DNA of 64,000 bases from Mycetohabitans endofungorum. Its GTDB lineage: Bacteria; Pseudomonadota; Gammaproteobacteria; Burkholderiales; Burkholderiaceae. A model generated the notes under the pieces. The model was not told the origin of the DNA and searched no databases. It worked only from the letters and a program-made list of their open reading frames with translations. Position 1 is the first letter of the stretch; each line of letters opens with the position of its first letter. Of the stretch, positions 34,882 to 64,000 are shown one piece after another. The position numbers and the translations under genes are program-made. The stretch spans positions 1,426,001 to 1,490,000 of the forward strand of contig NZ_CP132744.1 in the NCBI RefSeq assembly GCF_037477895.1. The letters are read 5' to 3'.

Positions 34882-35310
34882 TCACTGGATTGACTGGTAA
34901 TCCCAAGGGTTGATAACAGTAAGCCCGGCCGCCTCGAAGGGACTGGTATCGCGTGTTGCTACGATAAATCCTTTGGAGACCGCAATAGCACCAATATATC
35001 CGTCTGGCGTCGGAAAACCCTTTTCGGCCGTACGGGCCTTCACCGCCAGCTCGGCATAGTGGCGAGCCGCTTCGGTATCGAATGTCAACACGCGCTCGCC
35101 AAACAGCTCGAGCAAGCCGTCCAAGGCTACGCCCGGGCCCTTCTTGCGCCTCCCGTCCGGAAGCACACCGATGCCAAACAGCAACTCGGCCAACGTCACA
35201 CTGGAAAGGTAAAGGGTTTCCGCCACCTGCTCATTCAACCAGGCCCGCACGGCCGGATCGGGTTCGGGTTTCATCGCCTCGGAGACGACATTCGTGTCCA
35301 AGACGATCAT
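34882..35310 (-). CDS. PIN-domain toxin, FitB/VapC type
   Basis: A 142-residue ribonuclease toxin. The first acidic residue is in MIVLDTNVVSE (Asp5), then Glu in the VTLAELLFGI segment, and the later acids in TPDGYIGAIAV and ATRDTSPF, the full PIN quartet. The order and the FDTEAARHYAEL motif match FitB of the FitAB pair. It overlaps the antitoxin gene by four bases, the standard coupled layout. Confidence 0.9.
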   Translation of the reverse strand: MIVLDTNVVSEAMKPEPDPAVRAWLNEQVAETLYLSSVTLAELLFGIGVLPDGRRKKGPGVALDGLLELFGERVLTFDTEAARHYAELAVKARTAEKGFPTPDGYIGAIAVSKGFIVATRDTSPFEAAGLTVINPWDYQSIQ

Positions 35311-35525
35311 TCAAACCCCACCGGCTCCGCCGGCATCTTGTCGCGTACCTGGTCTAACAGTGCGAAATCATCGTTCGTTAACCCCACGCGGCGGCCAAGC
35401 TCCGCCAGCGCGTCGCCCATGCGGACACGCTTTTCCGACTTCACCGCATTTTCAAGAATCTCGCGGACCTCCGCCTCTGTGCTGCGGCCATGCACGGCGG
35501 CTCGCAGGCACAGAGCGCGGTGCAC
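35307..35525 (-). CDS. FitA-like antitoxin, N-terminus apparently damaged
   Basis: A 72-residue frame from a GTG at 35525. RALCLRAAVHGRSTEAEVREIL is the RHH helix region of FitA/Phd-like antitoxins, and the C-terminal RVGLTNDDFALLDQVRDK binds the toxin. The RHH beta-strand, usually at residues 2-8, is not in this frame; the same frame upstream reads VRQLVRDRRRSAG and then TGA just before GTG. So either a nonsense mutation removed the DNA-binding strand or the gene starts late. Confidence 0.65.
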   Translation of the reverse strand: MHRALCLRAAVHGRSTEAEVREILENAVKSEKRVRMGDALAELGRRVGLTNDDFALLDQVRDKMPAEPVGFE

Positions 35526-35642
35526 TTCTCATCCAGCGCTGCGGCGACGGTCTCTGACCAACTGCCGCACCTCCCTTCCCCCTGATCGCGGTACGGGCCG
35601 CGAAGATGTCCTGCTTCCAGCGGGACCGCCGGGTTGTCGGTC

Positions 35643-36827
35643 CTATGCCTTCACCAGCTTCGCGGCACTGGGATCGTAGATGTAGCCGGTGATGCTGCCA
35701 TCCTTGATGCGCGCGACGGCCTCATCAATGACGAACAGCGGAACGAGAAACCACTCCTCCGGCTGCACGGGATGACCAAAGCGGTCATTAATTGTGATAT
35801 TCAACCTCGCGGGCGCAAACAGCTTGTGGAACAGGTTCTCCATCCGTGTGCGGTTAATGCCCGCGAGCTTGTAAGTCGCCACCACTTCGACCTTCGCCAG
35901 CAGGTAGGTGGAGTCGTGTTCGGCGTTAGCGATGCGCGTCTCCACTCTGCCACCGGTCACGCCCATCTTGTGAATGATGTCGCGGTGCTGTGCGACATAG
36001 GGATGATCGGATAGGGAGCACAGGACGTAGATCGTGCCGCTTTCGACATCATCGGCTTCAAGCTCGCCGCCGAAGGAAAGTTGCCCGCTCTCAGGTGAAG
36101 CCAGCCGCCGCGCGGCCGGGTCGTTGTAGAACGCACGCTGGAGCGAGCGCAGCAGCAAATTGCTCTCGGTGCCGTTGGCAAAGATGAGGCGCAGGCGGCG
36201 GTCCACCTCCCCGGCGGTCGTCTTCAGCGGCTCGCCGACCTCAGAGACGTAGAGCGTAAGGCCATCGAGAACGAAAAAGTCCCCGGCTTCAATCGCACGG
36301 CGGCCCGCTTCTATGGGCTGGAACTGGCGCATACCGGTTTTGACTTCCCCTTGCACGCGCTCGAACAAGGGTCGGAAAGTCTCGAAGTCCTCGCAGGGCT
36401 TGCGATCCGCAATCTCGTCGGCAGCGCGCTTTTCGGCGCTGGTGCGGACATGGCGTAAAACCGTGATATCGTTCGCGTCGGCAACATCCGCCAGCTCGGC
36501 AGCCAGGTCGTCGATGTCGATGGTTTCGTCCGCCGAAGCGGCAACGGTCGGCGCCCCGGCAAGCAAGCCCTGATGGTCTAGCGGCTCAAGCAAGGCGCGG
36601 CAATCCGGGAGCGCGCGTAGACGGTCGAGCCGCACGGCGTATAGGCGCTCGAATATGTCGCGGTCTTCACCATGCTGCGGCGCCCGCCCATGCTGCTCGG
36701 TGAAGCGTTGGATTTCCTCGAAGCCAGCGATGACACGCTCCTCGCTGGCTGGGCGTCCATTTTTCTTCTCAGGCGTTGCGAACTCGGCCAGCTCTGCCGC
36801 CAGGTCGTCAAGATCAGAGTTACTCAT
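35643..36827 (-). CDS. GIY-YIG nuclease-domain protein (T5orf172/Mug113-like)
   Basis: A 394-residue protein and third gene of the methyltransferase-helicase operon. The C-terminal nuclease domain (about 255-365) has TIYVLCSL as the GIY strand, HKMGVTGG in place of YIG, an Arg in GRVETRIANAE, and a Glu in RTRMENLFHKLFA. The first 150 residues are acidic and helical, with the repeated motif DDLAAELA near residues 6 and 106, perhaps a helicase contact. The start at 36827 is taken because GGAGG lies before it; it overlaps the helicase by eight bases. Likely the cutting subunit; target unknown. Confidence 0.85.
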   Translation of the reverse strand: MSNSDLDDLAAELAEFATPEKKNGRPASEERVIAGFEEIQRFTEQHGRAPQHGEDRDIFERLYAVRLDRLRALPDCRALLEPLDHQGLLAGAPTVAASADETIDIDDLAAELADVADANDITVLRHVRTSAEKRAADEIADRKPCEDFETFRPLFERVQGEVKTGMRQFQPIEAGRRAIEAGDFFVLDGLTLYVSEVGEPLKTTAGEVDRRLRLIFANGTESNLLLRSLQRAFYNDPAARRLASPESGQLSFGGELEADDVESGTIYVLCSLSDHPYVAQHRDIIHKMGVTGGRVETRIANAEHDSTYLLAKVEVVATYKLAGINRTRMENLFHKLFAPARLNITINDRFGHPVQPEEWFLVPLFVIDEAVARIKDGSITGYIYDPSAAKLVKA

Positions 36828-38874
36828 AGCGCCCCTCCGCCCTGAAACGCATGAAGGCGGCCGCGCCTTCGGCAAGATGCTTTTCCCAGGCGTCCTGCGA
36901 GGTCACCGATGGAGCCCGCCCACGCTCGCGTTTGAACGCAACAGCGCGCTTGGCGATCACTTTGGCATCTTCAGACGTGATTGAGGTGCGCTTGGCCGAG
37001 ATGGCCGCCGTGACCTGCTTCAAGCTGTCCTCGCTCATGGTCTTGGCGAGGATGGCATAGGCTTCGCCAAAGGGGTTGATGCGGTCGATAAGGTCGATGT
37101 CCAGCTCGCGCACGTCCATCGCGAAGCGACGCACGCCGTCGAGCAGGGCGGTGTTGGGCGATCCTTCACCCTCGCCTTCGGTGACAAGCCGCTTGGCCTG
37201 TTGCGTGAGGTTGAGGGCGGCGATGGCGTGCTGGCGCACGGCCTCCTGATCCTCAGCGTCAAGCTCGGGATACTTGTCCTTGATGATCTTGCCCAGGCGA
37301 ACCTGCGTCAGCTCCTCGGGCACCAACTCTTCGTCGAACAGACCACGTTCGATGGTGGGCTTGTCCTGCACGAAAGCTGCGATGACTTCGTTCAAGTCTT
37401 CCTGGCAGATGCGCGCTGCCTCTTTGCTCTTGGACTCTGCGAGGCCCTTGATCTCGATCTGGTAAGTCCCTGTCTGCTCATTGACACCGATATTGCAGCG
37501 GTCCGGGTCGTAGCCACCCTCGCCATAGTTAAAGCCCGGCGTCGGGCCGCTGTCGGAGTTTTTGGGCTGAAACTCGAAGCGCGGAGCAAGAACCTGCTCC
37601 ATCAGCAGGCTTGCCGCGATGGCCTTTAACGTATCGTTGACGGCCTCGGTAACGGCTGCCTCGGTTGCATCCGGCTCGGCGATCAGGTTGGTGAACCTTG
37701 CGCGAGTCTTGCCCGGCGCATCGCGGGTAGCACGGCCGATGATCTGCACGATCTCGGTCAGGCTGGCACGATAGCCGACGGTCAGCGCATGTTCGCACCA
37801 AATCCAGTCGAAGCCCTCCTTCGCCATGCCCAGCGCGATGATGATGTCCACATGGTTCCGGTTGTCCTTTTGCGCAAGGTCTTTCAGCGCGGCGGAAACC
37901 CGGTCACGCTTCGTGGCATTGTCATCGACCAGATCGGCAATGCGCAGCATACGGCCATCGGGGCGCTTGACGAGCTGGAAGCCGGTGGCGGCGTCGATGC
38001 CCTGCCACTCCCCCAGCGCCTCGATGATGTGTTCCACCTCGCGCATCTTATCCTTCGTGCTCTCGCGCGAATTGATGTTGGGAATATGGATGATGGTCTT
38101 CTCGGCCGGGTCGAGGACGTTGAGGATGTTATCGACGTAAGACCCGCTGTAGAAGAAGTAGCCGATATCAAGTTGCTTGAGGTACTCGTAGCCGTTGAGC
38201 TGTTCGTAGTAGGTGTAGGTGACGGTATCGAACTTCGACTCATCCGACGGGGCGAGCACGGCCTCGGCATCACCCCGGAAGTAGGAGCCGGTCATGGCGA
38301 CGATGTGCGTCTTACCCCGCGCGATGAACTGGCCCAGATGCGTGCCCAACTTGTTGTCGGGGTTGGCCGAAACGTGGTGAAATTCATCGACTGCGATCAG
38401 GCGGTCGTCGAAAGCCTCCACGCCATAGGCATCGACCGCGAAGCGGAAGGTGGCGTGAGTGCAAACCAGTACCTTGTCCTCGCCTTCGAGGAACACACCC
38501 AGGGACTTGACCTTGCCGCCGTTGTCGTTGCCCGGCGCGTTGCACAGGTTCCACTTGGGTTCAACATGCCAGTCGGACCAGAAGCCGTACTTTGCCAGCG
38601 GCTCGTCGTTGAAGCTGGCGCCGATGGACTTCTCGGGCACAACGATGATGGCCTGCTTGAGGCCCTGGTTCTTAAGCTTGTCGAGCGCCACGAACATCAG
38701 CGCACGGCTCTTGCCCGAAGCCGGTGGCGACTTGATGAGCAGATATTGCTCGCCGCGCTTCTCGTAGGCTCGCTCTTGCATGGGTCGCATGCCAAAGGCA
38801 TTGGCCTTGGTCGATGCGCCATTGCGGGCGTAAGTGACGGAAACGGACGGTACGGACTTGATTTTGTCGCTCAT
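36820..38874 (-). CDS. SF2 DEAD/DEAH-type helicase of a defence/RM operon
   Basis: A 684-residue ATPase. Motif I is PASGKS (about 51-56), motif II DEFH (163-166), motif III MTGS (about 194-197) and motif VI QIIGRATR (377-384). This is the layout of the helicases of type I/III restriction systems. Residues 430-684 have no clear match and may bind the partner proteins; there is no visible PD-(D/E)xK motif, so cutting must be done by another subunit. It overlaps the methyltransferase gene by four bases (ATGA) and the GIY-YIG gene by eight, so all three are made from one message. Confidence 0.9.
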   Translation of the reverse strand: MSDKIKSVPSVSVTYARNGASTKANAFGMRPMQERAYEKRGEQYLLIKSPPASGKSRALMFVALDKLKNQGLKQAIIVVPEKSIGASFNDEPLAKYGFWSDWHVEPKWNLCNAPGNDNGGKVKSLGVFLEGEDKVLVCTHATFRFAVDAYGVEAFDDRLIAVDEFHHVSANPDNKLGTHLGQFIARGKTHIVAMTGSYFRGDAEAVLAPSDESKFDTVTYTYYEQLNGYEYLKQLDIGYFFYSGSYVDNILNVLDPAEKTIIHIPNINSRESTKDKMREVEHIIEALGEWQGIDAATGFQLVKRPDGRMLRIADLVDDNATKRDRVSAALKDLAQKDNRNHVDIIIALGMAKEGFDWIWCEHALTVGYRASLTEIVQIIGRATRDAPGKTRARFTNLIAEPDATEAAVTEAVNDTLKAIAASLLMEQVLAPRFEFQPKNSDSGPTPGFNYGEGGYDPDRCNIGVNEQTGTYQIEIKGLAESKSKEAARICQEDLNEVIAAFVQDKPTIERGLFDEELVPEELTQVRLGKIIKDKYPELDAEDQEAVRQHAIAALNLTQQAKRLVTEGEGEGSPNTALLDGVRRFAMDVRELDIDLIDRINPFGEAYAILAKTMSEDSLKQVTAAISAKRTSITSEDAKVIAKRAVAFKRERGRAPSVTSQDAWEKHLAEGAAAFMRFRAEGRYE

Positions 38875-41639
38875 GCGTTGGCTCCCGCTTTGCTCTTCTT
38901 GCCCTTGGCCGGCGCAGCCGCAGCGGTCATCTTGGTGTAGAGGTCAAACAGCTTTTCCAGCCGCTCGGTATCGTTCTTGAAGCGGCGACCGATGTAGATG
39001 CGCTCTAGCACCTCGTCGTTGCGCTCATGCACCGCCCGGAGTTCGGCAGGCATCTTGTCGGGGTCGTAGAGGTCGGCGATGGTCGCCGGGAAGTGACGCT
39101 CTCGCGCCAGCAAGATATCCTCGGCGCAGCGCCTAAGGTCCGCCTTGTTCTTCTCGGTTAGAGTCGGCACCGGAAACGTGTTGTAGCCGAGCACGTTGGA
39201 GTAACTAATGCGTTCTTCTAACTTTCCGCACACTGTCTCTGCCCAAACTCGATGAAGTCGGGACGAGCAAAGAGCAAATACATAAATATCGGGTTCGTAG
39301 ATTGTAAACAGCTTATTTGTGGCAATACATTCTGCGTCAATAATCCCGCAGGGAATGTATTCCCGCTTCTCAGACGACACTTCGGGTACGACGATGGCAC
39401 GCTTTCCGTAGTCTTGGATTTGGATGAAGCGGTGTGCGTCGTCTGCGCGTTTGCGCGTTGACTCGGCCGGGCTTTGGAGGCGCGCTTGAGTAACACCAGC
39501 TAAACGGCGGGCGATCTGTGGAATACTCTTCGCAGCGCCTAGTTGATAGTCCTCAATCCAGATGCAATACCTATCAGCGCCATCTATAAGTTCTTTAGAG
39601 CCATACAGCTTTCGAACGAAGCCCGCCGCCTCTGGGCTGATTCGGAGTAAGTCACGCTTCTCCCAAGGAGCGAGGATTAAGTTTCCACCATCTGTAGGCT
39701 GGTTTCCTTTTAGCATCCGGGGTAGACATGATATGGATTCCCCATGTCTAGGAATAAATACGTCGGCAAACTCCAAAAGATATGGATTAATTCGCGCTAC
39801 GTCTTTTCTTGTTCCGTCGAAGTAAATGAACTTACGACCGGACTGGATTGCACGAATGCCGACAATGACGCAGGTGACTCCGGCGTTGTTCGTTGCGAGA
39901 TTGCTCCACTTGAACGAAGTCTGCGCAAAGTATATTTCCACTCCATGCGCAAGCAACGTCGGCCATAGCAAATAGACCTGCTCGCCCTGACAGATGGAGT
40001 TGGTTGTCACAAACGCTGCCCCACCACGTACAGCCTTACAGAATTTCGACGCAAGCCAAAACCAGCCTGCTATGTAGTCGAGGTTCTTGTATTTGATCTC
40101 GCTAGACTCGAAGAGTCGCTGGATGTCGGCCTTTTGAGGCTTCGACTGCTTTGAGCTACCGACATAGGGCGGATTGCCGCAAATGTACGTCTCGCCGCCT
40201 TCGTTCTCGAAATCGATCTCTGCCTGATTAAGCGGCGTCTGGAAAAGGTCATCTGCCTGCACCTTTACGCCGGTCCCAGTCGGCGGGCAGATGCTCAACC
40301 AATCGAGCCGCAGAGCGTTGCCGCAGGTGATCCAGTTTTCGTTGCGCAGGGGCAGGAACTCGGCCAAGGCTAGCTTCTGACCCCGGTATAGTACGTCGCA
40401 CTGATACTCGGCGATGACCAGCGCAAGGCGGGCGATCTCCGCCGGAAAGTCGCGCAGCTCGATCCCGCGAAAGTTGGTGAGCGGGATTTCCGATGCACGA
40501 TTCGACTCGCCGCGCCGTCGGTTGATCTCGGCCTCGATGGCGCGCATTTCCTTGTAGGCGATGACCAGAAAGTTGCCCGAACCGCAAGCCGGGTCGAAGA
40601 CCCTGATCTTGGCAATGCGCTTGCGTAGATTGAGCAACACGCGAGCGTTGTCGCCCGCTTCCTCTAGCTTCGCCCGCAGGTCGTCGAGGAACAGCGGATT
40701 CAGCACCTTCAGGATGTTGGGAACGCTGGTGTAGTGCATCCCCAACTCGCCGCGCTCCTGGTCCTCAGCAACGGCCTGGATCATCGAGCCGAAGATGTCA
40801 GGATTGATCTTGGTCCAGTCCAGACCGCCGACGTGCAGCAGGTAGGACCGGGCAATCTTGCTGAATCGCGGCACCTCATCGCCGCCGGAGAACAACTGCC
40901 CATTGACGTAAGGAAAGTCTTCGGCCCACCGGGGAATTTTGGCGGCTGCCCGGTCCTCGCGCTTGGTATTCATGGCGCGGAACAGCGTGGCGATGACTTC
41001 GTGCGTGTTCGACGAGTCCTTGGCACTCATCTGCGCGACGGTTTCGGTGAATCGGCCCCTGCCGACGAAAATATCGGTGTCCTCAGCGAAGAAGCAGAAG
41101 ATGAGCCGCGCCATGAGGTTGTTCATGTCATGGCGGCGTTCCGCCGTGCCCCATGCGGGGTTGTCTTTCAGCAGCTCGACGTACAGGCGATTCAGACGGC
41201 TGGTAGCCCGGATGTCGAAGGCGTTTTCACTAATCTGGCGGACGGTGCTGATGCCCGCCAGCGGCAGGAAGAAGCCGAAGTGATCGGGAAAGTCCTTGAA
41301 GGCACAGGCGATGGTCTCGCCACTGGTCAGATCTTCGGCCTCGAAGTCCGCGCCGTCAGTGGCGAGGATGAACTTCGCCTTAGCCTTGGACGTCGCCGGA
41401 CTGGCCTTGAGATCGGCCAACGTCTGCGTCACCCGCCCAGCATCGCAGGTCAGGATGTGGATGTTGCTAGTCTGGAGGACGCCGCCCAAGTCGGACTTGT
41501 TCGACGCTCCAGCGCGAAGGCGCTTGATGGTCGTCGCCTTGTTGCCGAAGGCCTCAAGAAAGGCATAGGGGAACTCTGCGGGGTCGAAAGGCTGCTCCGC
41601 AAGGTCTGTGATCGCTTGTTCAATTTCTACAGCGTTCAT
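38871..41639 (-). CDS. Class I SAM-dependent DNA methyltransferase (MmeI/YeeA-like)
   Basis: A 922-residue adenine-N6-type methyltransferase. The SAM motif is VFDPACGSGNFL near residue 350 and the catalytic motif IV is NPPY near residue 489. A 300-residue N-terminal region precedes it, in the place where MmeI-type enzymes carry a nuclease, but I find no PD-ExK triad. The C-terminal part (about 520-860) is the target recognition region; its DNA (39.2-40.1 kb) is visibly AT-richer than the rest. It ends in a Lys/Ala-rich tail. First gene of the operon with helicase and GIY-YIG nuclease; a role in marking self DNA is inferred. Confidence 0.9.
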   Translation of the reverse strand: MNAVEIEQAITDLAEQPFDPAEFPYAFLEAFGNKATTIKRLRAGASNKSDLGGVLQTSNIHILTCDAGRVTQTLADLKASPATSKAKAKFILATDGADFEAEDLTSGETIACAFKDFPDHFGFFLPLAGISTVRQISENAFDIRATSRLNRLYVELLKDNPAWGTAERRHDMNNLMARLIFCFFAEDTDIFVGRGRFTETVAQMSAKDSSNTHEVIATLFRAMNTKREDRAAAKIPRWAEDFPYVNGQLFSGGDEVPRFSKIARSYLLHVGGLDWTKINPDIFGSMIQAVAEDQERGELGMHYTSVPNILKVLNPLFLDDLRAKLEEAGDNARVLLNLRKRIAKIRVFDPACGSGNFLVIAYKEMRAIEAEINRRRGESNRASEIPLTNFRGIELRDFPAEIARLALVIAEYQCDVLYRGQKLALAEFLPLRNENWITCGNALRLDWLSICPPTGTGVKVQADDLFQTPLNQAEIDFENEGGETYICGNPPYVGSSKQSKPQKADIQRLFESSEIKYKNLDYIAGWFWLASKFCKAVRGGAAFVTTNSICQGEQVYLLWPTLLAHGVEIYFAQTSFKWSNLATNNAGVTCVIVGIRAIQSGRKFIYFDGTRKDVARINPYLLEFADVFIPRHGESISCLPRMLKGNQPTDGGNLILAPWEKRDLLRISPEAAGFVRKLYGSKELIDGADRYCIWIEDYQLGAAKSIPQIARRLAGVTQARLQSPAESTRKRADDAHRFIQIQDYGKRAIVVPEVSSEKREYIPCGIIDAECIATNKLFTIYEPDIYVFALCSSRLHRVWAETVCGKLEERISYSNVLGYNTFPVPTLTEKNKADLRRCAEDILLARERHFPATIADLYDPDKMPAELRAVHERNDEVLERIYIGRRFKNDTERLEKLFDLYTKMTAAAAPAKGKKSKAGANA

Positions 41640-41697
41640 GGGCGTGCAGCTCCCTCTCTTGGCGAGGCCGCTGAGATGCTGTGGTTTTGCTGAGCGC

Positions 41698-41802
41698 TCA
41701 TGTCTTATCCTGCTTTTTCTCGGCTATCTGCGCGGCAATCCAACGATCCAACTCAGTGCGGCGAAACCGCCAGGTGCCGCCCAGCTTGGCCAAGTTTACC
41801 AT
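41698..41802 (-). pseudogene. AlpA/excisionase-type HTH remnant
   Basis: The 34-codon frame reads LGGTWRFRRTELDRWIAAQ and a Lys-rich tail, the wing-like end of HTH_17 (AlpA/excisionase) proteins. The HTH part upstream is lost behind a stop. It lies just beyond the methyltransferase start and marks a mobile-element context. Confidence 0.6.
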
Positions 41803-42285
41803 CCTGTCTACTCCAAAGAGCCCTGAATCTCAAAGCCGCGAAGCCACGGATCGGCCTGCGCTCAGCCTGGCGGCAGGCTCGCTGGGTGGCGCTGCTGCGC
41901 CTTTGGGATCGTGCAATCTAGAGATTGGCGGATAAAAAATCGGCCAAAAGACCACCGCCATCGAATAGCGCCCAACAGAACTCCCAAGCTACCGGACAAC
42001 TCGACCTGAAAGGCCTTCCCCCTCTCCTTTGCTCCGCCGTATCGCAGCACTCCATCGCTGGATTAGTAAAGCGTACTGAAGCTTATTCAGCCCACATTCG
42101 GGCGGATGATTAGCTCCAGTGAACTAGACTAAACCTGACAGCGGTTGGTTTTTCATTAATGAGCTTTCAAGACAATTTCAGCGCTGCCGTTTTTAGCGGC
42201 TAAATTTACTCATCAACTCAAACGCTCAAATACGGTAAGAATAATATCCTTACCGGCCTCAGCCGCCCCACCGGCCCGGGCGTAT

Positions 42286-42477
42286 CAGGTACAAGGCCCT
42301 GCGCGCCGAACTGGACATAGCCGCGAAACGGTACAGCGAACTAGTGAAGGAGCTAGACCAATGAGCACCGAAAACAACGACGCTCCTGCATGGATGCAGT
42401 TCCGGGCCGTACTGGGCAAGCGGATCGCCACTGGACCGTCGCGTCACCGAGCCGCGCTGTACGCGGGTCATCAGTAA
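42286..42477 (+). pseudogene. Conjugation-gene remnants (two overlapping short ORFs)
   Basis: A frame ending YKALRAELDIAAKRYSELVKELDQ overlaps by ATGA a second small ORF at 42361-42477 starting MSTENNDAPAWMQFRAVLGK. The tight overlap and composition resemble small genes of plasmid tra regions. The second ORF is cut at about 42440, where its sequence meets that of the mobilisation gene on the other strand. Confidence 0.45.
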
Positions 42478-42727
42478 GCCAGAGTTTTAGCAGGCCGCCC
42501 AGGCGGCTAAGATCGCCGTTGATGCGGGCCAGCTCGCGGACGTGCTCATAGTCCACGACGTCAATGATCTTGTAGCCCTGGCCGACTTCACGCAGATAGC
42601 GGGCGACGCTCATGCCTGCGCGCTTCGCATTCTCTTCAATGGCTTGCGTTTCGTTCGGGAACACCGACACCCGCAAATGCCGGCGACGTTTGCGGGCAGC
42701 ATCTACCTCGTATGTCTCCATCCTCAA
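42353..42727 (-). pseudogene. TraJ/MobC-like relaxosome protein, 3'-truncated
   Basis: The N-terminal 90 residues read RRRHLRVSVFPNETQAIEENA, AGMSVARYLREVGQGY and YEHVRELARINGDLSRLGGLLKLWL, the RHH-type DNA-binding layout of TraJ/MobC accessory proteins that assist a relaxase. From about residue 95 the frame is only the antisense of the small ORF at 42361-42477, so the natural C-terminus was removed by a rearrangement. Left over from a plasmid or integrative element. Confidence 0.7.
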
Positions 42728-42794
42728 GCCCGCATTTACGCGGGCTTAGAAGTGGTTTCGTGCTATTTGGTGTCGTTCTATGCCGGACGCGGGA

Positions 42795-44378
42795 TCACTC
42801 CCACTCAATCGTCGCCGGCGGCTTACCCGAAATATCGTACACCACACGATTGATGCCCTGCACCTCATTAATGATGCGATTCGACACACGCCCAAGCAAT
42901 TCATGCGGCAAATGTGCCCAATGCGCGGTCATGAAATCGTGCGTCTGCACCGCGCGCAACGCGACGACATAGTCATACGTGCGGCCATCGCCCATCACGC
43001 CGACGCTGCGCACCGGCAGAAAGACTGCAAACGCTTGGCTGGTCAACTCATACCACGACTTGCCGCTATCCGGATCCATCGTCGTGCGCAACGTTTCGAT
43101 AAAGATCGCATCGGCTTTGCGCAGCAGATCGGCGAACTCGCGTTTGACCTCGCCCAGGATCCGCACGCCCAGCCCCGGCCCGGGGAAGGGATGCCGATAC
43201 ACCATCGACGGCGGCAAGCCGAGCTTGACGCCAAGCTCGCGCACCTCGTCTTTGAACAACTCGCGCAGCGGCTCGAGCAGTTTCAGATTCAGCGTCTCCG
43301 GTAATCCACCCACGTTGTGGTGGCTCTTGATCGTGTGTGCGCCCTTCTTGCCTTTGCCCGCCGATTCGATCACATCCGGATAGATCGTGCCTTGCGCAAG
43401 CCATTTCGCGTCGGTCAGCTTGCGGGCCTCGTTCTGGAACACCTCGACGAATTCCGCACCGATGATCTTGCGCTTGTGCTCCGGATCCGTCACGCCGGCC
43501 AGCTTATTCATGAATGCGTCGCTGGCGTCGACGTGAATCACCTTTACCCCGAGGTGCCGTCCGAACGTCTCCATGACTTGCTCTGCTTCGTTGAGACGCA
43601 ACAAGCCGTGGTCGACGAATACGCACGTCAACTGATCGCCGATCGCGCGGTGTAGCAATGCCGCCGCAACCGATGAATCCACGCCGCCAGACAATCCGAG
43701 AATCACTCGCTCATTACCGACCTGCGCACGGATCTGCTCTACCGCCTCGGCGATGTAGTGCCCCATTTCCCAATCCGGCTTCGCGCCGCACAACTCGAGC
43801 ACGAACCGGTTCAACATGTCGCGGCCCTTGAGCGTATGCGTGACTTCCGGATGCCACTGCAATCCGTAGAACCGGCGATCCTCATCGGCCATCGCCGCAA
43901 TCGGACATGATTCGGTCGAGGCCATGAGCTTGAAGCCGGGCGGCATCTCGATCACCTTGTCACCGTGGCTCATCCAGACCTTCAGCATGCCATGGCCTTC
44001 CGGTGTCGTAAAATCCTCGATCGCCTCCAGCAGCTTCGTATGGTTGCGCGCACGTACCTCAGCGTAGCCGAACTCGCGCACGTGACCGAGTTCGACCTTG
44101 CCGCCGAGTTGCAACGCCATCGCCTGCATGCCGTAACAAATGCCCAATACCGGCACGCCTAGATCAAACACAGCCTGCGGCACGCGGGGCGCATCCGTGT
44201 CGGTGACCGAATTTGGACCGCCGGACAAAATCACCCCTTTTGGCTTGAATTCGCGCACGAATGCGTCATCAACATCGTAGGGATGAACCTCGGAGTAGAC
44301 ATGCGCCTCGCGCACACGGCGCGCGATCAACTGTGTGACCTGGGAGCCAAAGTCGAGGATCAGGATCTTGTCATGCAT
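42795..44378 (-). CDS. guaA: GMP synthase (glutamine-hydrolysing)
   Basis: A 527-residue cytoplasmic enzyme that aminates XMP to GMP. The class I amidotransferase domain has [18 protein letters not shown] and the nucleophile in GICYGMQ, with the His-Glu pair in [10 protein letters not shown]. The ATP pyrophosphatase domain carries the P-loop [12 protein letters not shown], and the C-terminal dimerisation domain ends [17 protein letters not shown]. Downstream of guaB in the same direction with one small membrane gene between, the usual Burkholderia order. Confidence 0.97.
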
Positions 44379-50160: not shown

Positions 50161-53100
50161 TTACGCCAATTCGCGCCGTTGATCTGCCAATTTATTCAGC
50201 TTACCCGCTATCACACGACCGATCGCAGCGGCTGGTTCCGGCTCGAGCAGCTTTCTATGGACGCAATGTATATCGTAAATCTCTATATTCCCGCCCACAT
50301 AAGGTTTCCATGCATCGCGAGGTACGGGCGTGTGGGACTGATTTTCCACGAGGGTTGCATGTAAAAAAAGTGCGTTGCCACCATAGATGGGCGGAGAAAA
50401 GTTTTTCAAAATACGGCAATGATTTTTTGCGATTTCCCAGGCATTCCTGCGTAACGGTTCGTCCATGGCCGAAATTAATTTTTCACCGTACTGAGCAACC
50501 AGCGCAGCATAATGGGTCGCTTCATCGAATTCGGGCACATCATCCAATAAGCCAGGGCGGGGATGGCTATCCAACAACGCCAATAGCGCCACTGACTCTT
50601 TGTGCTGCTCCAGTTGCGCCGCCATGCTGTGAGCCACGATGCCTCCCAGGCTCCACCCTAATAGGTGGTACGGTCCTTGAGGCTGAATGCGACGAATCTG
50701 CTCAAGGTAGTCTGAGGCCATTGCCTCAATCGTGGGAGCAAGCGGTCGTGCCCCGTCGAATCCGCGGGCTTGCAGGCCATAGAGGGGCTGATCGTTATCT
50801 AGGTGAGGGGATAAACTCATATAGCTCCAACTCAATCCCATGCCCGGATGGATGCAAAAAAGAGGAGGACGACTACCTTGGGGCTTGAGCGCAAGCAGCA
50901 CACTAAATGAGCTTTCCTGGCTTTTCTGGCTTCCCGGCTGCTCGACTAAACGTTGTGCCAAGCCTGCGAGGGTGGGAGCCTCGAACAGTGTGCGAATGGC
51001 AAGTTCCACCCCTAGCACATCACGAACACGGCTCATCAGGCGCATCGCCAGTAGCGAGTGCCCGCCGAGCGCAAAGAAGCTGTCGTGCCGGCCGACACGT
51101 TCGATACCCAATAGCTCGGCCCAAATCGCCGCGAGCGTCGTCTCGAGCTCGCCTTGCGGCGCTTCATACGCTTGATGCGCCAGCGCGTCGTCATCCGGTG
51201 CCGGCAGTGCGCGCCGATCCAGCTTGCCGCTGGGTGTCAGCGGAAACGCATCGAGCCGCACAAACGCACTGGGTATCATATACTCAGGCAGGCGAGCCGA
51301 GACATGTGCCCGCAAGGTACTGACTAAGGCTTCATCGGGCTGGGCCACCACATATGCGACCAGACGTTTATCCTGACCTTCGCCTGTTGCCAACACCACC
51401 GCATCACGCACCCGCGGGTGCGCCGTTAAGCACGCTTCGATCTCTTCCGGTTCAATCCGAAAGCCGCGGATCTTCACTTGCTCATCGTTGCGCCCCAAAT
51501 ACTCCAAATTGCCGTCCGGTAAATAACGCGCCAGATCTCCGGTCTTATACAGCCGTGCCCCCGCTTCATCGGAGAACGGATCCGGCACAAAGCGCTCAGC
51601 GGTCAACGCCGGGCGGTTCAGATAGCCACGGGCCACCCCGGCACCACCAATATACAACTCACCGACCGCACCCAGGGGCACCGGCTGGCCGTGCGCATCG
51701 AGCAGATAAACGCGCGTGTTCGCAATCGGCCGGCCGATGCTCTCAATCCATGCCTCACCACGCTGCATCGGCCGCCACGTCGAATAGGTGGTGCTCTCCG
51801 AAGGTCCATAAAGGTTACAGAGACGCTGGATGGGCGTTTGCTCAAAGATTTGCTCAATGAAGCGCGCTGTCAGCGACTCACCCGCCAGGTTCATCGTGGT
51901 GACCGAAGATAAGTTAGCCCGATGCGCCAGCAGGGACTGTAGCGCAGAAGGCACCGTATTAATCAGTGACACAGGCTGCGTCTGATGCATTAGCGCCAAT
52001 GCGTCCTTGACCAAGTGAACGGTCGAGCCTTGCGCGAGCGGCACAAAACACTCGTAGACGGACAAATCAAAACTGATTGAGGTGGCAAATAGCGTATGTT
52101 GCGTCTCCAAGGGCGTAAAGGTTTGCACCGCCCAGCACAAAAAATTGACGGCTTGGGCATGTTCGACCATCACGCCCTTCGGGGTGCCAGTCGAGCCGGA
52201 CGTATAGATCACATACGCCAGATGCCGGGCCGTCAACTCGGCTACCGATGGATTCGTGTCCAGCAACGCCGGCAGGGTAGCCGGATCAAGCACCGTGCAC
52301 TCGGCGAGCGCCGCCTCGCCCAACGCGGCACGCCCGGCCGCATCCGCCAGCACCATGTTCGGTGCCGCATCGGCGAGGATGTGCGCCAAGCGCTCGCTCG
52401 GATAGCTCGGATCAAGCGGCACATAGGCCCCACCGGCCTTTAAAATTGCCAACAATCCTACGACCAGCGCGGGACTGCGCTGCACGCAGATGGCCACGCG
52501 CGCATCGGGCTTGACGCCCAACTCGATCAGTTGGTGCGCAAGGCGATTGGCCCGGGCATTCAGTTGCGCATAGCTCAACGTTTGGTCTTCAAACACCAGC
52601 GCTGGTGCCTCGGGCGTGCGCTCGACCTGCGCTTCGAATAGCTGGTGCACACACCGATGTTTTGGATACGCCTGCTGCGTCGCATTCCATGTCTCAAGCA
52701 GCAACTGGCGCTCCGCCTCAGGCAGCACCTGCAGCTGCTGTACTGAAATGTCGGGCGTCGCCTCGAGCGCGTCGGCCAAGCTGTGCAGCGCCTGCTGCAT
52801 ATATGCGCATACTCGCTCAGGCTCCAGCGACGGCACGCTCTGGGCGGTCAGCCCCAACGACTGCCCATCATCGTCCACCGACAGTGTCAGCGGGTAATTG
52901 GTACGCTCCTGCGCGCCGAGCAGCTCCACCCCTGGTAGCCCGCTGCGCTCGCCTGAGTCCATCGCATTGTGCCGGTAATTGAGCAGCGCACTAAAGAGCG
53001 GCATATCGACCGGCACGCCGCTACAGCGCTGTACGAGCGCCAGCGACGCATGCTCATGCTCGAGCAACGCCGCCAGCCGCGCATGCGTCGCGTGCACGGC

Positions 53101-56100
53101 GGCCTGTACACTGCCGTCCAAATCCACGCGCAGCGGCAGCGTATTGATAAAGAGCCCCATCGCACGATCGGCTCCGCTACCGGCTTGCATCCGCCCAAAC
53201 AGCACGGTGCCAAACACCACGCGTTGTTGGCCGCTCGCGCGGGCGAGCACCTGCGCCCACGCCAGATGGCACAGGCATGCTAAGCTCACGCTCAAGTGTC
53301 GCGCATGCGCACGCAGCCGATCGTTCAATGCCGGTGGCAACCTCCAGTGTGACTCGCTCACTTCACTGCCGTCGCGCCGGACCTGCGCGAGCCCAAACGG
53401 CAAGGTCGGCTCCACGTCCGCGAGCAGCTCGGTGAAGAAGCGCGCATGCGCTTCTTCACTCACCCCTAGCCTGGCTTGCGCGACCAAATTGCGGAACGGC
53501 TGCGCCGGCAGCAAGGTGTCACCTCGACCTTCAAGGACGACCCGCACCTCATTCTGTACCATTTTGAGAGTTGTATTGTCATCAATCAAATGATGCAACC
53601 GCTGCATGAGCAGCCAGCGCCCCTCATTATCCTGGGCGATCGCACAGTGCAGCAGCGGCGCTTGCGTCAGATCCAAGCGCGTGTGACGCGGATCAAAGCG
53701 CCGCGCCATTTGCTCCGCGATCGGCCCGTCACCTACGTCTAACGTCAGCTCGGTGACCGGCAACCGCGCGTGGCGCCACACCACTTGCGCGGGCGTGGAC
53801 AGCCCCTCCCACACGAACGCGGTACGCAACATATCGTGGCGATCGATCACCTGCTGCAGCGCGTGCAGATACTGGTCAAGCCGCGCTCGCGTGTCAAAGG
53901 CCAGTTGCAGCATCAGCAAATAAGGATCGCCGTCGCGCGCGAGTAGATGGTGAAACAACAGCCCGTCTTGCGGCGGCGACAGCGCATAAATGTCCTGGAT
54001 ATTGGCTACGCCACCGGGCACCTGCTTGACAATTTTGTCGATGTCCGCTTGCGTCAGCTCAATGAGCGGCAGCATCGACGGCGTAATCGCAGTGGTGTCG
54101 GGTGTGATCGCGTTGGGCGGCGCCACCACGTCACGACGCTGACCCAACGTCTGCGCCAGCGCGCTGAGCGTCGGTGCCTCAAATAGCGCCCGCACCGACA
54201 CACTCAAGCCCTGACGCCGCAGACGCTCAATGAGCTGCACCGCCAGCAGCGAGTGGCCCCCGAGCGCAAAGAAGCTGTCGTGCCGGCCCACCTGCTTGAC
54301 ACCCAATAGCTCGGTCCAAATCTCAGCCAGCGTCGTCTCCAGCTCGCCTTGCGGCGCTTCATACGCTTGATGCGCCAGCGCGGCGTCATCCGGTGCGGGC
54401 AGTGCGCGCCGATCGAGCTTGCCGTTGGGCGTCAGCGGAAACGCATCGAGTCGCACAAACGCACTGGGCACCATATACTCGGGCAGCCTCGCCGCCATCT
54501 GTGCGCGCAGTGTGCTCGCCAATTGCTCATCCGCTTCGGCTTGCACATACGCCACGAGCCGCTTATCCGAGCCTTCACCGGTTGCCAGCACCACCGCATC
54601 ACGCACCTGCGGGTGTTGTATGAGGCACGCCGCAATCTCTCCCGGTTCAATCCGAAAGCCGCGGATCTTCACTTGCTCATCGTTGCGCCCCAAGAATTCT
54701 AGGTTGCCGTCCGGTAAATACCGCGCCACATCCCCGGTCTTATACAGCCGTGCACCCGCTTCATCTGAGAATGGATCCGGCACAAAGCGCTCAGCGCTCA
54801 GCGCTGGACGGTTTAGATAGCCCCGTGCGACGCCTGCGCCACCAATATACAGCTCGCCGACCGCACCCAGCGGCACCGGCTGCCCATGCGCGTCCAGCAG
54901 ATAGATCGTCAGGTCCGGAATCCGTATGCCCACCGGACTGCCCGCTTGTTCGCTGTCTTGCTGCCGAAGCGGCCGATACGTCACATGCACGGTCGCTTCG
55001 GTAATCCCATACATGTTGACCAATTGCGGATGATGCTCATCGTGCGTCGCATACCACGCCTGTAAGAGCGTCGGCTCCAGCGCCTCCCCGCCTAAGATCA
55101 CATAGCGCAATTGATCCGATAAAGCGCTATGTGCTTGGCTAGCCATCAATGCCTTAAATGCACTGGGGGTCTGATTTAATACGGTGACACCCTGCTCACA
55201 GATCAACTGGTAAAAAGCGTCGGCAGAGCGGGCAATCGAATGGGGCACGATGACAAGCTTGCCACCATAACGCAGTGCACCCCACAGCTCCCAGACCGAG
55301 AAATCGAACGCAAACGAGTGAAACAGGCACCAAGTATCATGCTCGTTAAAGCCATACCACGGTTGCGTCGCCTCGAACAGCCGCACCACTTGCGCATGTT
55401 CGACCATCACGCCCTTGGGCGTGCCGGTCGAGCCCGACGTATAGATCACATACGCCAGATGCCGGGCCGTCAGCGCGGCGATCGACGGATTCGTGTCCGG
55501 CAACGCTGGCAGGGTGGCCGGATCGAGCACCGTGCATTCGGCGAGCACCGCCTCGCCCAATGCAGCACGCCCAGCGGCATCCGCGAGTACAATCTTCGGT
55601 GCCGCATCAGCGAGGATATGCGCCAAGCGCTCACTCGGATAGCTCGGATCGAGCGGCACATAGGCGCCACCCGCTTTTAAAATCGCCAACAGCCCCGCGA
55701 CCAGTGCCGGCGAGCGCTCGACACAAATCGCCACCCGGGTGTCTGGCTTGACACCCCACTCAATCAGCTGGTGTGCCAAGCGATTGGCTTGTGCGTTCAG
55801 CTGCGCATAACTGAACGTTTGGTCCTCAAACACCAGCGCCGTCGCCTCAGGCGTGCGCTCGACCTGCTCTTCGAATAGCTGGTGCACGCACCGATGTGCC
55901 GGATACGCCTGCTGCGTCGCATTCCGTGTCTGCAGTAGCAACTGACGCTCGTCCGGCCCCAGTATCTGAAGCGTTGCGACCGGCTGCTGTGGGCTAGCCA
56001 CCATGGCGCGTAACATCGTCTCTAGATATCTGACGTGCCGCTCAATCGTGGATCGCTCGAACAGCGCCGTCGCATACGCTAAGCGGCCGATGATCTCGTC

Positions 56101-59100
56101 ACCTGCCTCAGACACGTTCAGCTCGAGATCGAACTTCACGACGTCATACTCCAGCTCAGCCGGCGTGGCCGTGAGCCCAGGTAGACGCCACTCGTTTGGC
56201 TCATTGTTCTGCCACGCCAACATCACCTGGAACAGCGGCGTATGATTCATTCGACGCGGCGGCTGCACGATCTCGACCACTTGCTCAAACGGCAGATCCT
56301 GATGCGCCTGTGCGTCCAATGTCGCGCGCCGCACGCGCGCGAGCAGTTCGCTCGTATTGGGATCGCCGGATAAGTTGGCACGCAACGCTAACGTATTGAC
56401 AAAAAAGCCAATCAACGGCTCGATCGCAGCATGTCCGCGATTGGCGCTGGGCGTGCCAATGACTATGTCGTCTTGGCCCGATAACCGTGACAGTACCGCG
56501 CTCCATGCGGCGAGCACCGTCATAAATAGCGTCGTACCGTGCTCCGCGCTTAAGCGCTTGAGCGCTTGCGTGGTGGCCGCATCAATGCGCACCGGCACCT
56601 GTGCGCCGGCAAACGACTGTTGCGCCGGACGCGGCCGATCGGTCGGTAGCTCCAGCAGCACCGGTGCGTCGGCCAGCGTCGCACGCCAATAGTCGCTTTG
56701 CGCCCGCAGCCGCTCACCCGAGAGCCACTGCCGTTGCCACGCCGCATAATCCGAATACTGAACCGCCAATGGCGGCAACGGATCCGGTTGGTCTCTACAG
56801 GCGGCCGTGTATAGCGCATTCAATTCCCTCACCAGCACACCGACCGACCAGCCGTCTGACACGATGTGATGTTGCGTCAGCACCAGCACGTGCTCGTCAT
56901 CCGACAACTGAATCCCGCACGCGCGCAGCAGCGGCCCGTGCGCCAGATCGAACGGCGCTTGTGCAGCCTCGGCGCTCAGTCGCACCAGTTGAGCCTGCGC
57001 ATCGGGCACATCACGCAAGTCATGCCAGCTCATCGGCACGCCTGTGTCGGCGGACAGCAGCTGAACTTGCGGCTGGCCTTCGACGCTGACGAACACCGAG
57101 CGCAGCGCGTCATGACGCGCAAGGAGCGCATCCAGCGCTTGCTGCCATGCGGCTCGGTTCAGCGGCCCATGCACACGCCACGCGAGCGGCATGTGATAGG
57201 TGCGACTCACACCGTCGAGTTGCGCGAGAAACCATAGCCGTTGCTGCGCAAACGACAGCGGCAAATGGCCTTCTCGCGACACCGGCGTGATCTCAGGCAG
57301 CGTATCGGTGCCGTGATGCCATTGCGCATCCACCGCGGTAGCGAATGCAGCGAGCGTCGGTGATGCGAACAGCGTCGCCAGTGGCACGTCGGCACCGAGT
57401 GCACTCACCCGGTTCATCAAACGCACCGCCAACAAAGAATGACCGCCGAGCGCAAAGAAGCTATCGTGCCGACCCACACGTTCGACACCCAATAGCTCCG
57501 CCCAGATCTCAGCCAGCGTCGTCTCGAGCTCGCCTTGCGGCGCTTCATATGCTTGATGCGCCAGCGCGGCGTCATCCGGTGCCGGCAGTGCACGCCGATC
57601 AAGCTTGCCGTTGGGTGTTAGCGGAAACGCATCGAGCCGCACAAACGCACTGGGCACCATATACTCGGGCAGCCTCGCCGCCACCTGTGCGCGCAGCGTG
57701 CTCGCCAGTTGCTCGTCCGCTTCGGCCTGCACATACGCAACCAGCCGCTTATCCACGCCCTCACCTGTTGTTACCACCACCGCGTCGCGCACTTGCGGGT
57801 GTTGCACGAGGCACGCCGCAACCTCACCCGGCTCAATGCGAAAGCCGCGTATCTTGACTTGGTCATCGTTGCGCCCCAAGAACTCTAGATTGCCGTCCGG
57901 TAAATAACGCGCTACATCCCCGGTCTTATACAGCCGCGCACCCGCGTCATCTGAAAACGGATCCGGCACAAAGCGCTCGGCGGTTAACTCTGGGCGTTTC
58001 AGGTAACCGCGTGCGACGCCTGCGCCACCAATATACAACTCGCCGACCGCACCCAGTGGCACCGGCTGCCCGTAGCAATCCAGCAAATAAATCCGTGTGT
58101 TCGCGATAGGGCGGCCACCAATATAAGACCGACTATCTGCTGTACTCAACTGCCCACAAGCCACTACAACCGTTGTTTCGGCCGGACCATAGAGATCCAC
58201 CAACGTAAGCCCAGCAGGCAGTACTTGTCTTAAATGAGGGAAACGTTCACCTCCCGTGAATAAATAACGCAAACTGTTTGGCATTCTCTGATCAGCCAAT
58301 GCCATAACAGCTAGCGGCGTGACCAGGAAAGACGCATTTAAATTCTGTTGTTGCCACCATTGCAACAAAGCTGAAACGTCCTTAGATATAGTGCGAGGTG
58401 GAATTACAAACTCATACCCACCAATTAGGCCTGACCAAAGCTCCCACACGCTCGCGTCAAACGCCACACCTGCAGTAAGTGCGCTTCGACAACCCTTCTG
58501 CACGTTGAACGTACGACCATGCCATGTACAAAGATTAATAAGATTGCGATGCTCAACCATCACACCCTTCGGCGTGCCGGTGGAGCCAGATGTATAGATT
58601 ACGTACGCCAGATGTCGGGACTTCAGGCCTGGCACTGACGGATTTGTCTCAGCCTGATGGGGTAACGTGTTTGGATCGAGCACCGTGCGATGAGCCAAGG
58701 CCGCCTCACCCAGCGCGGCGCGGCCCGCCGCATCGGCCAGCACGATCTTGGGTGCCGCATCCTGCAACATATGCGTGAGCCGCTCGCCCGGATAGGCTGG
58801 ATCGAGCGGCACATACGCCCCGCCCGCTTTCAGAATCGCCAACGACCCCACGACCAGCGCCGACGAGCGCTCGACACAGATCGCCACCCGGGTCTCTGGC
58901 CTGACACCCCACTCAATCAGCTGGTGTGCGAGGCGATTGGCCTGTGCGTTCAGCTGCGCATAGCTGAACGTTTGTTCCTCATACACCAGCGCCGGTGTTT
59001 CGGGCGTACGCTCGACCTGCGCTTCGAATAGCTGGTGCACGCACCAGTGCGACGGATACGCCTGCTGCGTCGCATTCCATGTCTGCAGCAGCAATTGGCG

Positions 59101-63558: not shown

Positions 63559-64000
63559 CTGTATTCTCCTATCCAGACACAAGGCTGGCCCGGGGCTGAC
63601 GACGCACGACGGCGATGGCTAACTTGCCAGGTAGAAAGCAGATCGAGCCCTAAGTGGACCAATACTTCCAAAATGATGCTGGGCAGGCATCATACCTGCC
63701 ACTCGTACCGCTTTTTGCTGGGCATTGAGTTGAAAAACGGCGGGAATCACTTCACTACCCTTAATTTATACCCGAGCCCTTAATTTAATTACACAGATAC
63801 GCCGCTCTTTTTACCAATAAACCGCAGCGTTATCGCCTTCAGAACACCACAGCAAACCAGTACACCTATTTCAGCAATGGCTATGCCTGCCAATGGCCCA
63901 CAGCTTTATATGCGATAAAGAGGGCTGTGCACGTTGCCGAATAATACTATTGGCATTTAAGATCATTAATTTATCAACGAAGACCAGCCGAAACAATTCA
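63559..64000. other. Leader and upstream region of the NRPS gene
   Basis: The 440 bp are AT-richer than the coding regions. I see no firm promoter boxes. On the minus strand a short hydrophobic frame ending FIGKKSGVSV (stop at about 63787) could be the end of another small gene but has no support. Confidence 0.4.

Follow-up and report, generated by a model that had tools for sequence, protein, structure and literature searches.

A DnmA-YeeB-YeeC-Type Operon in Mycetohabitans endofungorum as a Candidate ATP-Dependent Restriction-Modification System

The window analysed here is a stretch of 64,000 nucleotides from the 3.55-Mb, two-contig genome of Mycetohabitans endofungorum (contig NZ_CP132744.1, positions 1,426,001 to 1,490,000). 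It carries three overlapping minus-strand genes, encoding an MmeI-type adenine methyltransferase, a helicase-like ATPase of superfamily 2 (SF2) and a GIY-YIG protein (Table 1), which we consider as a candidate restriction-modification system. The methyltransferase and helicase genes share 4 bp (ATGA) and the helicase and GIY-YIG genes share 8 bp (ATGAGTAA); the order looked for, an SF2 helicase gene and then a T5orf172/GIY-YIG gene directly downstream of the methyltransferase gene, is the order found.

Table 1. Features of the operon and its surroundings, with positions counted from the first letter of the window
Feature	Position	Strand	Basis
MmeI-type adenine methyltransferase (DnmA/YeeA homologue), 922 aa	38871..41639	-	Pfam, PADLOC, alignment to MmeI 5hr4
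SF2 DEAD/DEAH helicase-like ATPase (YeeB homologue), 684 aa	36820..38874	-	Pfam, motifs, AlphaFold model, structure comparison
T5orf172/MUG113 GIY-YIG protein (YeeC homologue), 394 aa, start ATG at 36827	35643..36827	-	Pfam, residues
Helicase C-terminal region, residues 600-684, holding a module homologous to the GIY-YIG protein N-terminus	36823..37077	-	hhalign
GIY-YIG protein N-terminal 100 residues used in the module comparison	36528..36827	-	hhalign
FitA-like ribbon-helix-helix (RHH) antitoxin, N-terminally truncated; neighbour, probably not part of the system	35307..35525	-	Pfam, sibling comparison
PIN-domain (FitB/VapC-like) toxin, PF01850; neighbour, probably not part of the system	34882..35310	-	Pfam, sibling comparison
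Segment inserted between fitA and guaA; sibling G404 has no counterpart	35529..42725	.	sibling comparison
Remnant (truncated) of an HTH_17 protein of 66 aa; L026 and L027 have it intact, upstream of the methyltransferase	41698..41802	-	homologue comparison
TraJ/NikA-like mobilisation protein, guaA side of the insert	42353..42727	-	Pfam PF21983, NCBIfam PRK13877

The same three families stand in the same order in dnmA (yeeA), yeeB and yeeC of Bacillus subtilis, a likeness that the preliminary description of this DNA, made from the sequence alone, had suspected (PMC9973331, PMC7261158; articles are cited here by PMC number and are drawn on in excerpt). Like the window methyltransferase, B. subtilis DnmA, which forms N6-methyladenine (m6A) in the site GACGAG, is homologous to MmeI and has no nuclease motif, and both operons lie near toxin-antitoxin and mobility genes; what distinguishes the window in this comparison is that its SF2 and GIY-YIG residues are intact. 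Morgan 2009, as cited in those two articles, proposed that DnmA-YeeB-YeeC is a Type I-like system, and in the one literature collection that we searched we recognised no biochemistry of the three proteins together. DnmA-YeeB-YeeC is a known but uncharacterised family, and the window operon is a Proteobacterial member of it. The synteny was already known (PMC9973331); the triad counts, the variability of the target recognition domain (TRD), the slot and the common module described below come from this analysis.

Relatives were taken from a helicase-alignment scan of named genomes, and the best 80 of its 557 confirmed loci form our sample, in which close relatives are favoured; two of them, L030 (cut short by the contig end) and L035 (frame split in two), were set aside because their helicase is not intact. 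By the rule of our script, a full-length methyltransferase gene lies upstream of the helicase gene in 58 of the 62 loci with at least 3.5 kb there, and of the exceptions L043 fails just the script's overlap limit while L063, L069 and L091 are broken. Downstream, an intact GIY-YIG gene follows in 73 of 75 loci with room for one (broken in L070 and L101). The 8-bp overlap is preserved in 65/76 loci and the 4-bp overlap in 24/61. The co-occurrence of the three genes is not due to chance, and the earlier view of them as one unit is borne out by the overlaps and by the conserved set and order; homologues that regularly lack one of the three, which that description had named as evidence against itself, are not what we find.

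The methyltransferase has lost the means to cut. It matches five Pfam domains, MmeI_N, MmeI_hel, MmeI_Mtase, MmeI_TRD and MmeI_C, and can be divided into an MmeI_N segment without a nuclease triad (residues 1-159), a catalytic domain (325-606) and a hypervariable TRD (625-827). PADLOC 2.0.0 matches it strongly to a Type IIG model (REase_MTase_IIG, 944 bits), the helicase weakly and the GIY-YIG protein not at all. The nuclease triad of MmeI is D70/E80/K82 (PMC4833311). Since our alignment to MmeI (5hr4) begins only at MmeI residue 104 or 108, the loss of the triad was read from relatives that stand without a helicase, not from MmeI directly. The comparison set consisted of 10 loci without a helicase and 20 with one, from the stronger matches of a search of the phylum for the MmeI methyltransferase domain (the helicase-bearing locus G314 and weaker family matches were left out), to which 61 methyltransferases from the 80 named loci were added; the count excludes L144, which is truncated, and the too short L163 and L164. 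In the joint alignment the triad columns read DEK in 9/9 family methyltransferases without a helicase and in 0/80 helicase-associated ones, the window included (79 distinct sequences). A free regular expression for the triad found one match among the 79 helicase-associated ones other than the window, in L103, elsewhere in the sequence. The methyltransferase has thus, as judged by alignment, lost its own nuclease active site. It had earlier been said that no PD-(D/E)xK nuclease is visible here, and such a fold in the helicase C-terminus or the methyltransferase N-terminus had been held to count against the GIY-YIG protein as the cutter. The domain is in fact there, as MmeI_N at the methyltransferase N-terminus; what holds is that its catalytic residues, and with them the active site, are gone.

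The two partner proteins are conserved where activity would demand it. Fragments and truncated copies were excluded from both sets in which invariance was scored. The helicase matches Pfam DEAD and ResIII each barely above cut-off (ResIII at 22.7 bits, cut-off 22.5). Its Walker A GKS, DEFH and QxxGRxxRD motifs are invariant in 99/99 distinct cores. Its AlphaFold model has a predicted local distance difference test (pLDDT) score of 78. With this model Foldseek placed the Type ISP enzyme LlaBIII (4xqk) at rank 4 and EcoR124I HsdR chains in the first 50, whereas VIA-align put the Mfd, RIG-I-like and FANCM/Hef motors on top, and because the two methods rank different motors first, we claim no specific kinship for the helicase. 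Beyond position 440 the invariant residues among 21 sequences are L591, D594, N600, L609, L618, A637, F647, P655 and E664, and residues 484-679 are helical in the model; with so few C-terminal invariant residues and this helical structure we found no hidden nuclease in the helicase, which falls short of proof that there is none.

The GIY-YIG protein matches T5orf172 and MUG113 in Pfam. Y267, K287, G289, R298, E330, E358 and W359 are invariant in 96/96 distinct cores, while H334 varies in one and G351 in two; the second GIY-YIG motif is K-x-G, not Y-x-G. Among the invariant residues, Y267, R298 and E330 are what we take to be the tyrosine, arginine and glutamate with conserved roles in the GIY-YIG superfamily. 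The model of this protein has a pLDDT of 76. Foldseek returned no Protein Data Bank (PDB) match for it at E 0.001 (50 of 443 weaker matches were listed), and its listed VIA-align matches cover residues 148-249, outside the T5orf172 region; the probable assignment as a nuclease draws on Pfam, source names and conserved residues. A short LLAEL-like repeat that we had considered is not general, being present in two copies in 26, one copy in 40 and no copy in 37 of 103 sequences, a set into which some proteins entered twice via different start codons. The helicase motor and the GIY-YIG nuclease are, by these counts, strictly constrained, and the proposal that the GIY-YIG protein is the likely cutter gains from the invariance of its catalytic residues.

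That invariance also bears on a different kind of defence, non-cleaving or abortive in the manner of BREX or Pgl, in which the helicase and GIY-YIG protein would block phage replication or damage the host. Such a role would suit the methyltransferase's matches to the BREX PglX and DISARM DrmMI models, which are far weaker than that to Type IIG, and the observation, in the excerpts of PMC9973331, that Bacillus phages show no depletion of the DnmA site, from which its authors concluded that any restriction must differ from canonical restriction-modification. But the other four proteins scanned with PADLOC match no BREX or DISARM partner, and the intact GIY-YIG active site points to DNA cleavage; we regard this alternative as unlikely.

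A module some 50 residues long is common to the helicase C-terminus and the GIY-YIG N-terminus (probability 93 and E 2.7e-7 in hhalign). Its score is 40.35, whereas the highest score among 200 column shuffles was 19.73. With the closer homologues alone the signal is weak (probability 16, P 0.0016); the stronger result was obtained with divergent members added, in alignments of 119 and 114 rows, repeats included, that hold 99 and 96 distinct cores. The two termini evidently hold homologous modules, and we conjecture that the module serves to dock one protein to the other.

If the nuclease is separate from the methyltransferase, the question is which protein chooses the target. When 60 complete loci are compared with the window, median identity is 40% in the TRD, as against 78 in the N-terminal domain, 79 in the spacer, 69 in the catalytic domain and 84 in the C-terminal domain of the methyltransferase, 86 in the helicase core and 74 in the helicase C-terminal part, and 69, 52 and 66 in the N-terminal, middle and GIY-YIG domains of the GIY-YIG protein. 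In 20-residue blocks the fall in methyltransferase identity spans roughly residues 500 to 820, and some blocks inside this span are better preserved. The same pattern holds over short distances. L026 is 98% identical to the window in the methyltransferase N-terminal domain, 94% in the helicase core and 97% in the GIY-YIG domain, and 38% in the TRD; in nine close loci (L026, L027, L028, L029, L031, L033, L036, L037 and L038) the TRD is 35-43% identical, the helicase core 89-95% and the GIY-YIG domain 83-97%. Conversely, L046 has the same TRD type as the window (75%) on a distant backbone (N-terminal domain 69%), and 41 proteins of more than 800 residues, among the best 120 of a TRD-region search, carry this TRD type at 61-95% with N-terminal domains at 61-96% (39% in P0253, whose N-terminus is short). 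The same TRD type on different backbones would fit TRD exchange. Since the TRD varies while the helicase core and GIY-YIG domain stay close, the most economical interpretation is that both activities take their aim from the methyltransferase, which probably directs cutting as well as protection. The role in self-protection first proposed for it is thereby kept, and probably too narrow: the protein carries the hypervariable TRD and most likely aims restriction too.

A layout like that of CglI, in which the GIY-YIG protein would find its DNA target by itself and the methyltransferase would serve for protection alone, has precedent in the CglI nuclease subunit, which carries its own B3 domain and works with a separate ATPase (PMC5737866); the GIY-YIG middle domain, with its median of 52%, is moreover variable over the wider family. 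In the nine close loci, however, that domain remains 86-95% identical while the TRD falls to 35-43%, and we consider such a layout quite improbable.

Part of the target can be predicted. The contact code was taken from PMC4833311, the rule for position 4 from a figure legend; by this code the pairs E751/N773, K774/S810 and E806/R808 stand for C at positions 3, 4 and 6. In the family the contact residues vary in pairs that are known from MmeI: a pair named there for position 6 is found in 46 of 62 methyltransferases (61 if R replaces K), one for position 4 in 39 and one for position 3 in 24, and all four code positions are identical to the window in 40 of the 41 TRD relatives. The predicted window site is NNCC(m6A)C, 6 bp long and non-palindromic, with A at position 5.

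We think it on balance probable that the window operon works as an ATP-dependent restriction-modification system and resembles a Type ISP enzyme whose functions are divided among three chains. In this model the methyltransferase would bind its 6-bp non-palindromic site and methylate one strand; at an unmethylated site it would serve as a recognition platform for the helicase, which would move along DNA until the GIY-YIG protein, docked to it, cuts. Marking one strand has a cost, since a freshly replicated host site would look unmethylated, and host DNA would be spared if two converging motors were required, as reported for Type ISP enzymes (PMC4666363, PMC3874165). Translocation and the head-to-head rule are carried over by analogy from Type ISP enzymes; cutting directed by the methyltransferase, docking through the module and a role in defence are likewise steps that we infer.

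The proposal can be placed among known systems. In the Type ISP enzymes LlaGI and LlaBIII a nuclease, an SF2 motor, a gamma-methyltransferase and a TRD act together, as we propose here, and an asymmetric site methylated on one strand (PMC4666363, PMC3874165) resembles the site predicted for the window; the window system differs in having three chains rather than one, a GIY-YIG rather than an Mrr-type nuclease (there is no Mrr Pfam match) and an MmeI-type methyltransferase with a triad-less nuclease domain. MmeI and the Type IIL (IIG) enzymes have the same five Pfam domains, with the MmeI methyltransferase and TRD, but the window methyltransferase is without the D/E/K triad and is accompanied by helicase and GIY-YIG genes. 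CglI and NgoAVII, like the window, have separate nuclease and DEAD-family ATPase subunits (PMC5737866). Unlike in Type I systems, the TRD lies within the methyltransferase, and none of the six proteins scanned has an HsdS-type Pfam match. The difference from Type III is that the methyltransferase is of the MmeI family and that the C-terminal part of the helicase (484-679), helical in the model, has few invariant residues.

Several observations weigh against a working restriction system. No restriction motor, LlaBIII included, is among the 50 VIA-align matches listed for the helicase; neither Foldseek nor VIA-align lists a GIY-YIG entry among its 50 matches for the GIY-YIG model, and neither the helicase nor the GIY-YIG protein has a significant PDB sequence match. 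The contact pairs are not those named in the excerpts of PMC4833311 at position 3 in 38/62 methyltransferases and at position 4 in 23/62, and the TRD is not alone in varying, as the middle domain of the GIY-YIG protein (median identity 52%) does so as well. In B. subtilis, according to the excerpts of PMC9973331 and PMC7261158, deletion of dnmA left plasmid uptake unchanged, single deletions left sensitivity to three phages unchanged, and the authors call the system a relic.

A restriction relic, with the methyltransferase as an orphan epigenetic regulator and a helicase and nuclease that restrict no more, was concluded for B. subtilis from these phage and transformation assays together with growth assays. 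A relic would be expected to decay, and the catalytic residues unchanged in all 99 helicase and 96 GIY-YIG cores, with both genes intact in most loci, therefore count against it; we believe that there is a small chance that the window operon is one. Deletion of dnmA and yeeB in Vibrio crassostreae reportedly raised sensitivity to some phages (a study cited in PMC9973331), and defence genes are reported to be commoner around dnmA homologues than around random regions (PMC9973331). The comparative evidence seems to favour a maintained restriction system over a relic; restriction itself we infer from sequence.

Some loci hold extra genes within the operon, a few of them of candidate defence families. 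A gap of at least 300 bp separates the methyltransferase and helicase genes in 30/61 loci (set L025-L104); 27 of the 30 hold a same-strand open reading frame of at least 120 codons there, and in 21 a frame starts within the methyltransferase stop. Of 18 slot proteins scanned with Pfam (two of them, L009 and L012, from the phylum draw), 10 had no match and eight did: YhcG and PDDEXK_4 nucleases, RhuM, two Schlafen AlbA_2, two PIN and one HTH-M78. PADLOC, applied to nine slot proteins, assigned the YhcG, RhuM and PDDEXK_4 proteins to the candidate defence families PDC-S02, PDC-S05 and PDC-S26, matched that of L034 weakly and the other five not at all. In two genomes (L148 and L155) about 7 kb lie between the methyltransferase and the helicase; of what fills these gaps, the HTH-M78 gene adjoining the helicase in G068 (L009) was looked at.

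An independent draw of 398 genomes from the phylum gave 23, counting that of the window, in which the helicase is matched with an E value of 1e-30 or lower. Among 5426 complete Escherichia coli genomes 90 have a match, 89 of them over at least 80% of the gene. The best helicase match (97%) is from M. endofungorum. The operon looks mobile: the helicase was not found in any of seven congeners, four of which have reduced genomes of 1.1-1.2 Mb, and sixteen plasmid records match, 10 of them over 34-67% of the query. In E. coli L172 and L173, which have the same methyltransferase accession, the operon stands beside IS66 and island genes.

The surroundings suggest how the operon arrived. In sibling G404 the FitAB sequence, but no operon, lies between guaA and an AraC-type gene, together with about 200 bp that match nothing in the window; some 380 bp separate these two genes in sibling G401. 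The antitoxin of G404 is intact, and about 120 bp of the toxin region are missing there. The window fitA matches its sibling as far as 35528; its first dozen or so codons are missing, intact copies exist elsewhere, and the PIN toxin frame is open. The RHH match of the antitoxin starts at position 13 of the 39-position profile, which indicates that it is truncated at its N-terminus. FitAB is probably no part of the system, since the sibling has it without the operon and the window antitoxin has lost its first codons where the insertion begins; it looks like a neighbour that was there earlier and was interrupted when the segment inserted. A PIN toxin homologue lies downstream of the GIY-YIG gene in none of the 68 loci with at least 1.5 kb beyond it (other toxin families were not tested), and elsewhere at three loci, L026, L033 and L049. 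On this result and on G404 we reject the suggestion that FitAB is a backup module. The HTH_17 gene whose remnant lies upstream was considered as a fourth core component and rejected, being upstream in just 3 of 56 loci searched, plus L154. The TraJ/NikA-like gene is probably the remnant of a mobile element. In Acidithiobacillus marinus (L029), read by eye, the operon also follows the end of guaA (the window counterpart is 42726-42795), and given this location in both, the 3′ side of guaA may be a reused insertion site. Farther along the window, positions 50161-63582 form a single minus-strand frame of 4473 codons, perhaps a giant modular enzyme.

We speculate, as an idea that is plausible but stops somewhat short of probable, that the window operon represents a distinct and widespread motor-driven class: a Type IIL enzyme whose dead nuclease has been replaced in trans by an SF2 translocase and a GIY-YIG nuclease, docked via a duplicated module, retargeted by TRD exchange alone, and carrying exchangeable accessory defence genes in its slot. 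If the operon does restrict, (i) annotation mislabels a common ATP-dependent system, (ii) part of its target could be predicted from the MmeI recognition code, and (iii) the case would help settle whether the outcome in B. subtilis is a relic or the rule.

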